From positions 1-8,524 of the forward strand of contig DOHC01000117.1 in NCBI GenBank assembly GCA_003535475.1: a stretch of DNA of 8,524 nucleotides, read 5' to 3'. The DNA comes from Nitrospiraceae bacterium. GTDB lineage: Bacteria > Nitrospirota > Thermodesulfovibrionia > Thermodesulfovibrionales > UBA1546. Below are positions 1,109 to 8,516 of this stretch, piece after piece. Position 1 is the stretch's first letter, and each line of letters opens with the position of its first letter. The position numbers and the translations under genes were made by a program. The notes beneath the pieces were generated by a model. It was not told where the DNA came from, did no database searches, and saw only the letters and a list, made by a program, of their open reading frames with translations.

Positions 1109-2389
1109 ATGAAAAGGGTTGTTGTAACGGGCATAGGAGCAGTCAGTTCTCTGGGTAATTCATTCCGCGAATCATGGACGGCTGTCCAAAAAGGATTATC
1201 AGGCATAGCTCCTTTAACAAGATTTAATGTTCCCCCGATGAAGTGGAAAATGTCAGGAGAATTAAAGGGTTTTGATGCAGGGCTGTATCTGTCTCAAAAG
1301 GAAATGCCTCATCTTGACCCATTTGTACATTATGCAGTTGCCGCATCTTTGATGGCTGCAGAAGATGCGCAATTAGTGCAGAAGTCACTCGCTTCAGGCG
1401 GTGTGATTATCGGCTCAAGCAGAGGCGGCATAACTACGATAGAACAGGCAATAATAAAACAGGAAAATTCAGGATGCAGGATTCAGGATGCAGGATTCAG
1501 GATAAAGACAGTTGAAACTCCTAACTCACAATCCCTAACTCATAACTTTCGCTTGTCTCCTTACCTTATGCCTTCAACAAGCGTAAATGCGGCAGCATCA
1601 TATGCGGCGCAGAAGATCGGTATTAAAGGTTACTGTCTCGGCATATCAAATGCCTGCTCATCAGGAGCAAATGCAATAGGCGAGGCGTACAGATTGATAA
1701 AATCCGGCTATGCAGATATGGTTTTTGCCGGAGGCACAGAGGCTCCAATATGCAGGTTGTGTATTGAAGGGTATGGCGCATCAGGCGCATTGTCAAAAAT
1801 AAACGATGCCTCTGCAAGCAGGCCGTTTGATAAAACGAGAAATGGTTTTGTTCTTGCAGAAGGCGCATGTGTTCTTGTCCTTGAAGATTATGAGACAGCG
1901 TTAAAAAGAGGAGCAAGGATTTATGGCGAGATTATCGGATACGGAAATACCACGGATGCATTCCATCAGACAAGGCCCAGCGCAGAAGGAGAGGCAAGGG
2001 CGATAAGGCTTGCAATGGAAGAAGGGGGTTTGTCGCCGGAGGATGTAGATTATATCAATGCTCACGGAACGTCAACACCTCTCGGCGATAAGGCAGAAAC
2101 AGAGGCTATAAAGCTTGCCCTTGGCAAAAGGGCTTATGAAATTCCGATAAGTTCTGTAAAGTCAATGACAGGTCACATGCTTGCAGCATCAGGCTCATTT
2201 GAGGCTGCTGTTACGCTGATGAGTATTTATGAGGGCATAATCCCTCCGACTATAAATCTTAAGACAAAAGACCCTGAGTGTGATTTGAATTATGTTACCG
2301 AAACCAGAAAGACTGAGATTAAGACCGCTATTTCCAATTCATTCGGATTCGGAGGGGTGAATGCAGTGCTGGCGTTCAGGAGGGTTTGA
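1109..2389 (+). CDS. fabF: beta-ketoacyl-ACP synthase II-type (KAS II) with a repeat insertion
   Basis: This 426-residue thiolase-fold enzyme condenses malonyl-ACP with acyl-ACP in the elongation step of fatty acid synthesis. The N-terminus KRVVVTGIGAVSSLGNS is typical of FabF. The Cys-His-His set and conserved Lys are present: C183 in NACSSG, H319 in HGTSTPLGD, K351 in SVKSMTGH, H356. The end reads NSFGFGGVNAVLAF, also typical. I start at ATG 1109 rather than the in-frame TTG at 1103, because the family begins with M(K)RVVVTG. Residues about 119-147 do not fit the family. They are encoded by tandem heptamers (1467-1544) and lie between GGITTIEQ and SPYLMPS, a surface region in KAS enzymes. 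The frame is intact and the catalytic residues remain, so it is probably active. It stands alone without acpP or fabG, so a specialised KAS role is possible. Confidence 0.88.
   Translation: MKRVVVTGIGAVSSLGNSFRESWTAVQKGLSGIAPLTRFNVPPMKWKMSGELKGFDAGLYLSQKEMPHLDPFVHYAVAASLMAAEDAQLVQKSLASGGVIIGSSRGGITTIEQAIIKQENSGCRIQDAGFRIKTVETPNSQSLTHNFRLSPYLMPSTSVNAAASYAAQKIGIKGYCLGISNACSSGANAIGEAYRLIKSGYADMVFAGGTEAPICRLCIEGYGASGALSKINDASASRPFDKTRNGFVLAEGACVLVLEDYETALKRGARIYGEIIGYGNTTDAFHQTRPSAEGEARAIRLAMEEGGLSPEDVDYINAHGTSTPLGDKAETEAIKLALGKRAYEIPISSVKSMTGHMLAASGSFEAAVTLMSIYEGIIPPTINLKTKDPECDLNYVTETRKTEIKTAISNSFGFGGVNAVLAFRRV
1467..1544 (+). repeat. Two-armed heptanucleotide repeat inside fabF
   Basis: Five tandem 7-mers run from 1467 to 1501, alternating ATTCAGG and ATGCAGG. 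After a 15-nt spacer, four degenerate 7-mers run from 1517 to 1544 (ACTCCTA, ACTCACA, ATCCCTA, ACTCATA). The right-arm unit read as CCTAACT is close to CCTGAAT, the reverse complement of the left-arm unit, so the arms are roughly inverted. The total is 78 nt, a multiple of three, which keeps fabF in frame. Each 7-nt unit by itself is not a multiple of three. Confidence 0.8.
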
Positions 2390-5129: not shown

Positions 5130-5972
5130 ATGCGATTGCCGGAGTGGATAAAAGTGAAAAGCCCTATGGGGGTTCATGATACAAAACAGATTTTAAGGAA
5201 TCACCGCCTTTCCACTGTCTGCGAGGAGGCGCGATGTCCGAACATGGGAGAGTGTTTTTCAAAACCAACTGCGACCTTCATGATTATGGGTTCTGCATGC
5301 ACAAGAAACTGCGGGTTCTGCTCCGTAGAGTCCGCAATCCCCCAACCGCTTGATAAGAACGAACCGGAAAGGGTTGCGTTTGCTGCAAGGGAGATGGGAT
5401 TGAAGTATGTTGTTGTGACATCTGTTACACGTGATGACTTGCCTGACGGCGGTGCTAAGCATTTTGCTGAGACAGTCAGGGCAGTAAAAAAATATCTTCC
5501 TGATAAAACTGTTGAAGTTCTCACGCCTGACTTTAAAGGCAGTTATAATTCACTGAAAACTGTTCTTGATTCTGCGCCCGATGTCTATAATCATAATGTA
5601 GAGACTGTGCCAAGGCTTTATCCGTATGTAAGGCCAAGGGCAAATTATGAGAGATCCTTAAATGTTTTGCGGAATGCAAAAAAAAATGCATTTGATATCA
5701 ACGCAAAATCAGGGCTGATGGTAGGGCTGGGCGAGACTTTCAATGAGGTCATCAGCGTATTGAAAGACCTCATGGATGCCGGCTGTGAGACTGTTACAAT
5801 AGGGCAATACCTCAGGCCGTCTAAAAAAAATCTTCCTGTTAAGGAATATGTAAGGCCTGAGATTTTTAATGAATATAAAGAAATAGCTGTTAAAATAGGG
5901 TTTAAATATGTGGCATCATCCCCGCTTGTAAGGAGCTCGATGAATGCAGAGGAAATGTATAATAATCGGTGA
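5130..5972 (+). CDS. lipA: Lipoyl synthase
   Basis: This 280-residue radical-SAM enzyme inserts two sulfurs into octanoyl groups on lipoyl domains of the pyruvate and 2-oxoglutarate dehydrogenases and the glycine cleavage H protein. Both Fe-S sites are complete. The auxiliary cluster is C31, C36 and C42 in CEEARCPNMGEC; the SAM cluster is C57, C61 and C64 in CTRNCGFC. The C-terminal R268-S269-S270, which ligates the auxiliary cluster, is present in VRSSMNAEE. DDLPDGGA and the NHNVET segment are also family-typical. The start at ATG 5130 (MRLPEWIKVK) fits LipA N-termini, although no ribosome site precedes it. Length is at the short end of the family. The stop codon lies in a short tandem repeat, so the last three residues (NNR) may derive from it. 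No lipB or lplA gene is in view. Confidence 0.95.
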   Translation: MRLPEWIKVKSPMGVHDTKQILRNHRLSTVCEEARCPNMGECFSKPTATFMIMGSACTRNCGFCSVESAIPQPLDKNEPERVAFAAREMGLKYVVVTSVTRDDLPDGGAKHFAETVRAVKKYLPDKTVEVLTPDFKGSYNSLKTVLDSAPDVYNHNVETVPRLYPYVRPRANYERSLNVLRNAKKNAFDINAKSGLMVGLGETFNEVISVLKDLMDAGCETVTIGQYLRPSKKNLPVKEYVRPEIFNEYKEIAVKIGFKYVASSPLVRSSMNAEEMYNNR

Positions 5973-6034
5973 ATGGGTGAATGGGATTAATGATATTTTT
6001 GCGATTCACCGATTGACCGATTCCCCAATTCACC
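5964..6034. repeat. Octamer repeat with inverted arms between lipA and alaC
   Basis: The left arm has CGGTGAAT then GGGTGAAT then GGGATT (5967-5988). The right arm has four 8-mers at 6003-6034: GATTCACC, GATTGACC, GATTCCCC and AATTCACC. AATCGGTGAAT (5964-5974) and ATTCACCGATT (6004-6014) are exact 11-bp inverted repeats with a 29-nt loop. The lipA stop TGA (5970-5972) is inside the left arm, and the right arm ends at the alaC ribosome site. As RNA it could form a hairpin in the intercistronic region; no T-tract follows. Confidence 0.7.
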
Positions 6035-6046
6035 AGAGGAGTTTAA

Positions 6047-7222
6047 ATGTTTGAGTTCAACAGGATAAAGAGGCTTCCGCCTTATGTGTTTGCCATAGTC
6101 AACGGCCTTAAGATGGAGGCGAGAAAACGCGGGGAGGATATAATTGACCTTGGCATGGGAAATCCTGACATGCCTGCTACAAAACATGTGATAGACAAAC
6201 TCTGCGAGGCAGTGCATAATCCCAAAAACCACAGATATTCTGCGTCAAAGGGAATTACCCAGTTGAGAATGGCGGTATGCGAGTGGTACAAGAGGAGATT
6301 TGATGTTGATTTAGACCCTGAAAGTGAGGCAGTTGTAACTATCGGTTCAAAGGAAGGGCTTACGCACCTTGCCCTTGCAACAATACAGCCAGGAGATGTT
6401 GTCATGACGCCTGCGCCTGCATACCCTATACATCCTTATAGTGTGATTATCGCAGGCGGTGAGATTATAAGCATTCCGATAGGTCCGGGGATTGATTTTT
6501 TTGCAGAAATGGAAAAGGCATTCAAGAAGACATGGCCAAGGCCTAAGATGCTTATAATAAACTTTCCGCACAATCCGACAACAATCGTTGTTGAAGGGCT
6601 GGAATTCTTTAAGAAGGTCGTGGATTTTGCAAAAGAAAACAATATAATAGTTATCCATGATTTTGCCTATGCAGACCTTGTATTTGATGATTACAAGGCG
6701 CCGAGCTTATTGCAGGTTCCGGGAGCAAAGGATGTAGGAGTTGAATTTTTCTCTCTCACAAAAAGCTATTCCATGCCAGGATGGAGAGTCGGTTTTTGCG
6801 TTGGAAATAAGGATATTGTCGGAGCGCTGATAAAGATAAAGAGCTATCTTGACTACGGGATGTTTCAGCCCATACAGATTGCAAGCATTGTTGCCCTGAG
6901 AGGGCCTCAGGATTGTGTTGAGGAATTCAGAAAAATATACGAGTCAAGGCGCAATGTGCTGATTAACGGGCTTCATAATGCAGGATGGAATGTGGAATCC
7001 CCAAAGGCTACAATGTTCGTATGGGCAAAAATTCCTGAGCAGTTCAGAAAAATGGGTTCCCTTGAATTTGCAAAACTTCTTATAAACGAAGGCGGAGTTG
7101 CGGTGTCTCCGGGAATAGGTTTTGGAGAAGGAGGAGATGAATACGTGCGATTTGCCCTTGTTGAGAACGAGCACAGGATAAAACAGGCTGCAAAGGGAAT
7201 TAAGAAGGTGCTTGGCGGATGA
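6047..7222 (+). CDS. alaC: AlaC-type alanine aminotransferase (PLP class I/II)
   Basis: This 391-residue fold-type I PLP enzyme is close along its whole length to E. coli AlaC as I recall it: FxRIxRLPPYVF at the N-terminus, [48 protein letters not shown] and VSPGIGFG. The PLP lysine is K239 in [16 protein letters not shown]176 (HNP), D205 and Y208 (HDFAYAD) and R368 (YVRFA) occupy the expected cofactor and carboxylate positions. AlaC transfers amino groups between glutamate and pyruvate to make alanine; related enzymes use aspartate or LL-diaminopimelate. Its coupling to hom leaves room for an aspartate-pathway role. AGAGGAG at 6035-6041 is a strong ribosome site for ATG 6047. The 3' end overlaps hom by four bases (ATGA), indicating translational coupling. 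Confidence 0.9.
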
Positions 7223-8232
7223 TTAATGTCGGCATTATAGGATTCGGGACTGTCGGAACAGGAACGGCTAAGATATTGCTTGAAAACAAGAGCGTTATTT
7301 CTCAGAGAATTGGTTTTGATATAAACCTGAAAAAAATTGCAGACCTTGACATAAAAAAGAGCAGGGGGATTAAACTGCCGGAAGGGATTTTAACCGCCAA
7401 TGCCGACGAGATACTTAATGCCCCTGAGATTAATATAGTTGTTGAGCTTATCGGAGGCATACACCCTGCAAAGGAACTTATCCTGAGAGCCATAAGGAAT
7501 AAAAAACATGTGGTTACAGCAAATAAAGCGCTTATCGCCACAGAGGGGAATGAAATATTGGCTGAAGCGGAAAAGCATGGCGTTGAGATCGGCTTTGAAG
7601 CATCTGTTGCCGGCGGCATTCCCATTATCAAGATTCTTAAAGAGGGCCTCATTGCAAACAGGATACTGGCAGTCTATGGGATAATAAACGGCACTTCAAA
7701 TTATATTCTCACAAAGATGACGGACGAGGGCATTGAGTTTTCTGATGCTCTGAAAGAAGCGCAGAGGCTCGGCTATGCAGAAGCTGACCCTACTTATGAT
7801 ATAGAAGGAATCGATTCAGCCCATAAGCTGGCGATTCTTGCATCGTTGGCGTATAACATACCGTTTTCGTTTAATGATGTTTATAAAGAGGGGATAACCA
7901 GAATAACCTCTCAGGACATTGGCTTTGCAGGAGAGTTGGGTTATAAGATAAAACTTCTTGCAATCGCAAAGGCTTCCGACAACAAGGTGGAACTCAGGGT
8001 TCATCCCACAATAGTTCCAAAGGATTATCTTATATCAAAGGTTGACGGTGTTTTTAATGCAATTTATGTGCAGGGCGATGCGGTCGGCGACACCCTTTAC
8101 TATGGAAGAGGCGCAGGCGATATGCCGACAGGGAGTGCGGTTGTAAGCGATATCGTAGATATCGGGAAGAAGATAGTCAGGAGTCAGGAGTCAGGAGTCA
8201 AGAAGCAGTCCAGATACCGCGCTCCAAGCTAA
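7219..8232 (+). CDS. hom: Homoserine dehydrogenase, catalytic part; ACT domain split off
   Basis: This enzyme reduces aspartate semialdehyde to homoserine, the branch step to threonine and methionine. The Rossmann motif is GFGTVGTG (8-15). TANKALIA (100-107), EASVAGGIP (127-135) and [11 protein letters not shown] (154-164) follow, then [20 protein letters not shown] with the catalytic pair D199 and K203. The catalytic core ends with [20 protein letters not shown] (297-315). The bacterial enzyme is usually 420-440 residues with a C-terminal ACT domain. Here the frame stops after 337 residues, with a tail ([17 protein letters not shown]) encoded largely by AGTCAGG repeats. The ACT sequence continues downstream in another frame. 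All catalytic residues are present, so the product is probably active but may lack threonine feedback control. The start overlaps the alaC stop, with AAGGTG at 7205-7210 as a fair ribosome site. Confidence 0.9.
8175..8200 (+). repeat. Heptamer tandem repeat at the hom break
   Basis: Three full AGTCAGG units (8175-8195) and a partial AGTCA (8196-8200) lie between the catalytic and ACT parts of hom. The unit differs by one base from the ATTCAGG unit inside fabF. A change of one unit shifts the reading frame by one base. Confidence 0.85.
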
Positions 8233-8261
8233 AGGTTAAGGGCATAGAAGACATTGAGGCA

Positions 8262-8516
8262 ATGTATTATTTCAGGTTCACTGCATTTGACAAGCCGGGC
8301 GTTCTCTCAAGCATCTCCGGGGTGCTCGGCAGTTACAACATAAGCATAACCTCTGTTATTCAGAAAGGAAGACGGCTCGGAGAGGCTGTCCCTCTTATAG
8401 TTCTTACGCATACGGCAAAAGAAAAGGATGTTATTAAAGCAGTAGCGGAAATTGACAGGCTTTCAGTTGTTGCGGATAAAACGCTTTATATAAGAGTCGA
8501 GGGGAAAGAAGAATAG
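8262..8516 (+). CDS. ACT domain of homoserine dehydrogenase, out of frame
   Basis: This 84-residue open frame is the regulatory ACT domain that normally ends Hom. YYFRFTAFDKPGVLSSISGV, then LGSYNISITSVIQKGR, then VPLIVLTHTAKEKDV and ADKTLYIRVE follow the family's order and length to the natural C-terminus. The same frame upstream of the ATG (from 8226) reads [12 protein letters not shown], which also looks like the Hom linker, so the ATG at 8262 is probably an internal methionine rather than a true start. No well-spaced ribosome site precedes it; GAGG lies only two bases before the ATG. The catalytic frame stops at 8230-8232, and a -1 change relative to it (or +2) would join the two. It is either the back half of a frameshifted gene or, less likely, a separately reinitiated regulatory subunit. 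The stop is TAG at 8514-8516. Confidence 0.8.
   Translation: MYYFRFTAFDKPGVLSSISGVLGSYNISITSVIQKGRRLGEAVPLIVLTHTAKEKDVIKAVAEIDRLSVVADKTLYIRVEGKEE

Follow-up and report, generated by a model that had tools for sequence, protein, structure and literature searches.

A homoserine dehydrogenase gene that, as assembled, is split from its ACT domain at a heptamer array of a dispersed repeat class in a Nitrospiraceae bacterium

The window analysed here, a contig of 8,524 bases (C11) from a Nitrospiraceae bacterium of the order Thermodesulfovibrionales, ends with a homoserine dehydrogenase gene (hom) whose two parts lie in different reading frames. The catalytic part (positions 7219-8232, forward strand; 337 aa as assembled, from the ORF list) starts with an ATG that overlaps the stop codon of an upstream aminotransferase gene (6047-7222). 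Profile searches of this frame matched PF03447 (1-116 of 116, residues 8-127) and PF00742 (1-173 of 173, residues 135-313), and NF004976, the class of monofunctional homoserine dehydrogenases with a C-terminal ACT domain, was matched at 482.5 bits against a cut-off of 205; the NAD-binding and catalytic domains are complete. The ACT domain is absent from this polypeptide, as the linker end and the ACT domain (8205-8516, forward strand) lie in another frame; this frame stays open from a point upstream of 8061 until the stop at 8516, and PF01842 was matched in it at 39.9 bits (cut-off 27; residues 22-83 of 8205-8513). The linker between the two domains carries an AGTCAGG array (8175-8200, forward strand), for which Tandem Repeats Finder gave a period of 7, 3.7 copies and 100% matches. 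The catalytic frame stops at 8232, 32 bases 3' of the array, after an out-of-frame tail of 10 residues in the ORF list (8201-8232, forward strand), a stretch that a protein of the same species, P0003, translates in the other frame as QEAVQIPRS. An earlier note, made from the letters alone, had described a catalytic frame ending at 8232, an ACT domain in a different, open frame that runs to 8516 and 3.7 copies of AGTCAGG between them; the ORF list and Pfam agree on the frames and Tandem Repeats Finder on the copy number. The catalytic part also has Ile in HPT(I)VP at a residue that is Met in 131 of the 132 proteins matched and Leu in the remaining one, a substitution that might reflect decay, a difference between strains or an error.

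Two further repeats are present in the window. Tandem Repeats Finder located a second heptamer array (1467-1503, forward strand) in frame within fabF (1103-2389), the frame of which is intact, with TIGR03150 (fabF, NCBIfam) matched on both sides of the array. A repeat and hairpin search found an octamer element (5964-6034, no strand assigned) with inverted arms GGTGAATG and CGATTCACC at the end of a lipA-like gene (5130-5972), and this element folds as a DNA hairpin (5955-6042, z -3.07). An Rfam search of the window returned no match.

A fused form of the enzyme exists in the same species as the window. P0003, a protein of 434 aa encoded on a 9,730-base contig, has both the catalytic part and the ACT domain and agrees with the window at 317 of 318 residues of the catalytic part and at all 83 of the ACT part; its linker is that of the window plus one unit, the array DNA being deduced from the protein. 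It had been predicted in the earlier note that the gain of one unit would fuse the two parts, and P0003 is such a form with one more unit. Two unit numbers may occur within one species, the 4.7-unit form being deduced from the P0003 protein and the 3.7-unit form possibly an assembly error. The best 120 matches listed per search included no copy of the 337-residue protein or of its ACT fragment, and PF01842 was present in 119 of the best 120 matches to the catalytic part; the exception, P0121, is named partial, ends in unrelated residues and lacks PF01842. A linker of 39 residues was common to all 21 of the retrieved proteins that share this linker type. P0216, a 64-residue ACT-only fragment from a close relative that is encoded on a 150,022-base contig and starts inside the ACT domain, is perhaps another broken hom. 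An AlphaFold2 model of P0003 built from 26 sequences had a mean pLDDT of 57.7, too poor for placement of the linker.

Among 61 genomes, hom was found in 60, of which 59 are relatives of the window's genome, and one (G014) gave no match. Two relatives with only N-terminal pieces at contig edges (G003 and G032) were left out of the frame count, and in all 57 evaluable relatives the open frame is continuous through the linker; 55 of these encode at least 428 aa, and the other two (G002 and G005) are truncated only N-terminally, yet are long enough to reach the end. The proposal that the two parts form one protein in relatives thus held, and repeat-free relatives with the split as two normal genes, the arrangement named in the earlier note as contrary to its reading, were looked for among these genomes and not found. 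The junction was read at 31 relative loci, 29 of which are in the same frame, the motif search having failed in the other two. One locus, L063, was considered as an out-of-frame hom and ruled out since its DNA reads as one continuous frame.

The nearest relatives, G006 and G007, have the same AGTCAGG array with one unit more. Their linker is 117 nt long and that of the window 110 nt, a difference of exactly one 7-nt unit, and the perfect run at the array is 31 nt in both and 26 nt in the window. The size of the difference, exactly one unit, and the continuous frame in all 57 evaluable relatives speak against chance. Codon differences in the ACT part are 9 silent to 1 changed against G007 and 16 silent to 1 changed against G006; judged by these codons, the ACT part is under constraint and shows no decay, which points to a recent split.

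The hom array belongs to a class of dispersed microrepeats of period 7 or 8, often found as inverted pairs, many of which are in frame in housekeeping genes of this genus. A search of the window's genome (G000) for exact array patterns gave 15 places, at least 15 in all since the count covers these patterns only, and 14 of them (not that on C20) were read. Twelve of the 14 lie within one open frame. Seven of these are within the protein chain, in dapF, purC, fabF, cobA/hemD (where the contig ends 40 bases after the array), cobN, cbiX-cbiC and a BPL_N protein, and five are near an N-terminus with an uncertain start codon, in an outer membrane efflux protein, a lipoprotein-like ORF, lptD, an amidase and ATP synthase b. 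Pfam supports 10 of the 12 in-frame genes and NCBIfam supports fabF. The array on C279 is at a gene boundary, and that in hom is the sole one among the 14 seen to split a gene. Because such arrays are widespread in the genes of this genome, and mostly in frame, the hom array is ordinary in kind. The arrays on C179, C198, C208, C261 and C263 lie close to the N-terminus of proteins that are exported or in the membrane; there the inverted arm encodes HASCIL-like residues beside a hydrophobic stretch. A second repeat, translated as a PPLSPLxKGG-like peptide, lies between the heptamer arms on C179 (L144) as well as in the hom linkers of P0039, P0048, P0051 and P0081.

The periodicity was examined in 400 kb of a congeneric genome, G001, which contained 22 arrays of period 7, 10 of period 8 and 16 of period 14, the last presumably as a multiple of 7, with 0-2 at each other period from 4 to 15; one shuffle of this stretch contained none except a single array at period 15. 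At a looser threshold the same 400 kb gave 54 arrays in 45 elements, of which 23 are inside ORFs, 10 at an edge and 12 between ORFs, whereas random placement would put 36.7 (sd 2.5) of the 45 inside; genes are therefore avoided by the elements but not closed to them. Inspected by eye for further gene splits, the ORF pairs up- and downstream of the 45 elements look like ordinary neighbouring genes. All six separate GGTGAAT-type octamer arrays inside ORFs of G001 are in the stop-free orientation. The pattern GATNCANGATNCANGATNCA was present in 48 of the 295 phylum genomes. Its overlapping matches numbered 273 in G001, 627 in G008 and 25 in G000; its reversed control gave none in these three and was non-zero in G038, G204 and G133. 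G008 is a 2.9-Mb genome of the same family, and its 627 overlapping matches are to the GATNCAN array pattern. A further pattern, CAGGANNCAGGANNCAGGA, was found in 20 of 61 genomes, including seven of the eight of the genus (not G004), and its control gave none in the genus and was non-zero in G013, G025 and G026.

At fixed sites the repeat unit differs between species. The 112 hom loci with DNA yielded 88 distinct linkers, the rest being duplicates or without a motif; ten of the 88 carry a period-7 array and one a period-8 array at a score of at least 15, and 440 shuffled linkers scored at most 11. The unit at the hom site is AGTCAGG in G000, G006 and G007, GATACAG-like in G002 and G005, and part of a period-8 array in G004, while the G001 linker has a weaker heptamer array that scores below 15. 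Several hom linkers have, by eye, an inverted array after the array. The fabF loop (L162-L175) carries CAGGATG/CAGGATT in the window, GCATCAC in G004, G005 and G006, and other short repeats in G001 and G013. The array sequence in hom is identical in G000, G006 and G007; homogenisation was considered for this identity and rejected, as the identity is not beyond chance at 5-7% divergence.

Rickettsia palindromic elements are small, dispersed, palindrome-forming sequences that lie in frame inside protein genes and make up one family of related sequences. The elements described here resemble them in having many copies in frame inside genes (12 of the 14 arrays read in G000, five of them near an uncertain N-terminus), but their arms are tandem heptamers or octamers that differ between related species at the same site: at hom, the unit sequence and even the period (7 or 8) vary, so that they do not form a single family of related sequences. 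The palindromic fold also varies by element, with z -7.84 for the dapF element, z -3.07 for the octamer element of the window and z -0.41 for the hom array. Dispersed tandem heptamers are known from other bacterial genomes, namely the TAACTGA repeats of Beggiatoaceae and the GGGAATC and GGGGA(C/T)T repeats of Xanthomonas and Nostoc, both described as mainly intergenic (PMC4679880, PMC4692102). Forward TAACTGA gives stops in all frames (PMC4679880), whereas the heptamers described here are stop-free in all frames and, in contrast to both sets of known repeats, often lie inside genes. A literature search, with most subscription papers outside its scope, returned no description of such elements in Nitrospirota.

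For the split itself, the account that we favour, and to which we give an even chance, is that hom lost one 7-base unit, most likely by slippage, producing a sporadic allele without its brake. Replication slippage at the perfect array would have removed one unit from the hom linker, in an event that may have been both biological and recent. Since 7 leaves 1 modulo 3, the loss of one unit leads to a stop 10 codons past the array, and the ACT regulatory domain is predicted to be omitted from the product. The shortened enzyme would work and would escape inhibition by threonine, the probable ligand of this Hom. The PDB holds homoserine dehydrogenase chains of 304-335 aa that, judged by length, are catalytic-only. 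A C-terminal deletion in the C. glutamicum homoserine dehydrogenase is reported, by title, to abolish inhibition by L-threonine. This feedback-resistant C. glutamicum enzyme (Archer et al. 1991) resembles the window hom in having lost its C-terminal regulatory part; we know of no tandem-repeat origin of that allele, whereas the loss in the window is linked to a repeat. We take the short allele, which could in principle revert, to be sporadic and not a selected switch.

Arrays of this kind are sites of possible misassembly, and for this reason we place a real loss no higher than this and give substantial, though lesser, weight to the explanation that hom is fused in the cells, with 4.7 units, and lost one of these to the assembler. 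In a perfect run of 33 bases, as deduced from the P0003 protein, k-mers repeat up to k = 26; if the true allele is of this kind, then by arithmetic a de Bruijn assembler working at k of about 20-26 would shorten the run to exactly the 26 bases observed. On general knowledge, however, a larger k is usual in the final assembly and a 33-base array is shorter than the usual short read. The assembly is fragmentary (1.74 Mb in 322 contigs, 66% complete), undetermined bases occur in 12 loci of other contigs at four places of assembly, the hom stop lies 8 bases from the end of the window contig, and the exceptional Ile would fit an error. Against this, the frame is kept at 12 other arrays of the same assembly, arrays of 31 bases were kept in G006 and G007, and the window may represent a different strain from P0003 since at least one further residue differs. 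A doubtful contig join at a heptamer array is seen in a congener: fabF of G007 is in two pieces, on C9 (C9:734, L191) and on C65 (C65:1338, L192), each of which runs at its heptamer array into an unrelated gene, murD-like on C9 and peptidoglycan hydrolase-like on C65, the latter present weakly in G020 and absent from 14 of 15 other genomes searched. A genuine rearrangement could account for this, but misjoined contigs are the likelier cause; in both cases such arrays mark sites at which assembly can go wrong.

The earlier note had suggested that the repeat may act as a reversible switch. Its frame arithmetic stood, as did the fused allele, and the alternatives that it named itself, a fixed frameshift and an assembly error, are both plausible; the switching did not find support. 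We regard as improbable an evolved phase-variable locus at which unit changes are frequent and selection retains the feedback-controlled enzyme alongside a free-running one. In neuO of E. coli K1, an AAGACTC heptanucleotide repeat near the gene start varies from 3 to 53 units (PMC13001214). As at a neuO-type locus, the reading frame at hom depends on how many units a heptanucleotide array inside the gene contains (PMC13001214). In favour of a switch, two unit numbers may occur within one species, and the P0216 fragment could be a second split, although it starts inside the ACT domain. However, the neuO array switches the whole protein from near its start, whereas the hom array lies between two domains and affects only the regulatory one, and against the 3 to 53 units of neuO the short hom array (26-31 bases) has 3.7 or 4.7 (PMC13001214). 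Frequent slippage should also leave variants that gained or lost three units and so kept the frame; the relatives did not show such a spread of lengths, the 21 linkers of this type being of one length, and ACT is carried by all but the partial P0121 among the best 120 matches. We consider it very improbable that the ACT part is made by programmed ribosomal frameshifting or by internal initiation at 8262. No stop interrupts the other frame anywhere across the junction, and an ATG does occur at 8262, but this ATG belongs to the conserved EAMYY motif of the ACT part and the GAGG ahead of it is at a distance of only 2 bases; no usual slippery heptamer was found by eye, and folding of the hom array is no better than that of shuffles (z -0.41). 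The two-frame arrangement was not found to be conserved in relatives, and because these encode Hom in one frame, there is no conserved frameshift signal.

If the split allele is real, it would be a natural example of an enzyme being parted from its feedback domain by a single repeat unit, and the loss of such a domain is a change that breeders have selected in industrial strains. The arrays are also a warning that assemblies of these organisms may contain errors at such places. A wider account, which we offer as speculative and rather unlikely to hold as a whole, is that in Thermodesulfovibrionales a spreading class of tandem-heptamer hairpin elements colonises permissive linkers and loops in proteins with housekeeping roles and keeps its site while the unit turns over, so that one slipped unit can detach a domain, and that hom has been caught in the course of such a detachment, freed from its brake. 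The setting matters more than the single allele: these genomes carry hundreds of short tandem-heptamer elements, many of them in frame in essential-looking genes, at fixed sites and with changing sequence.
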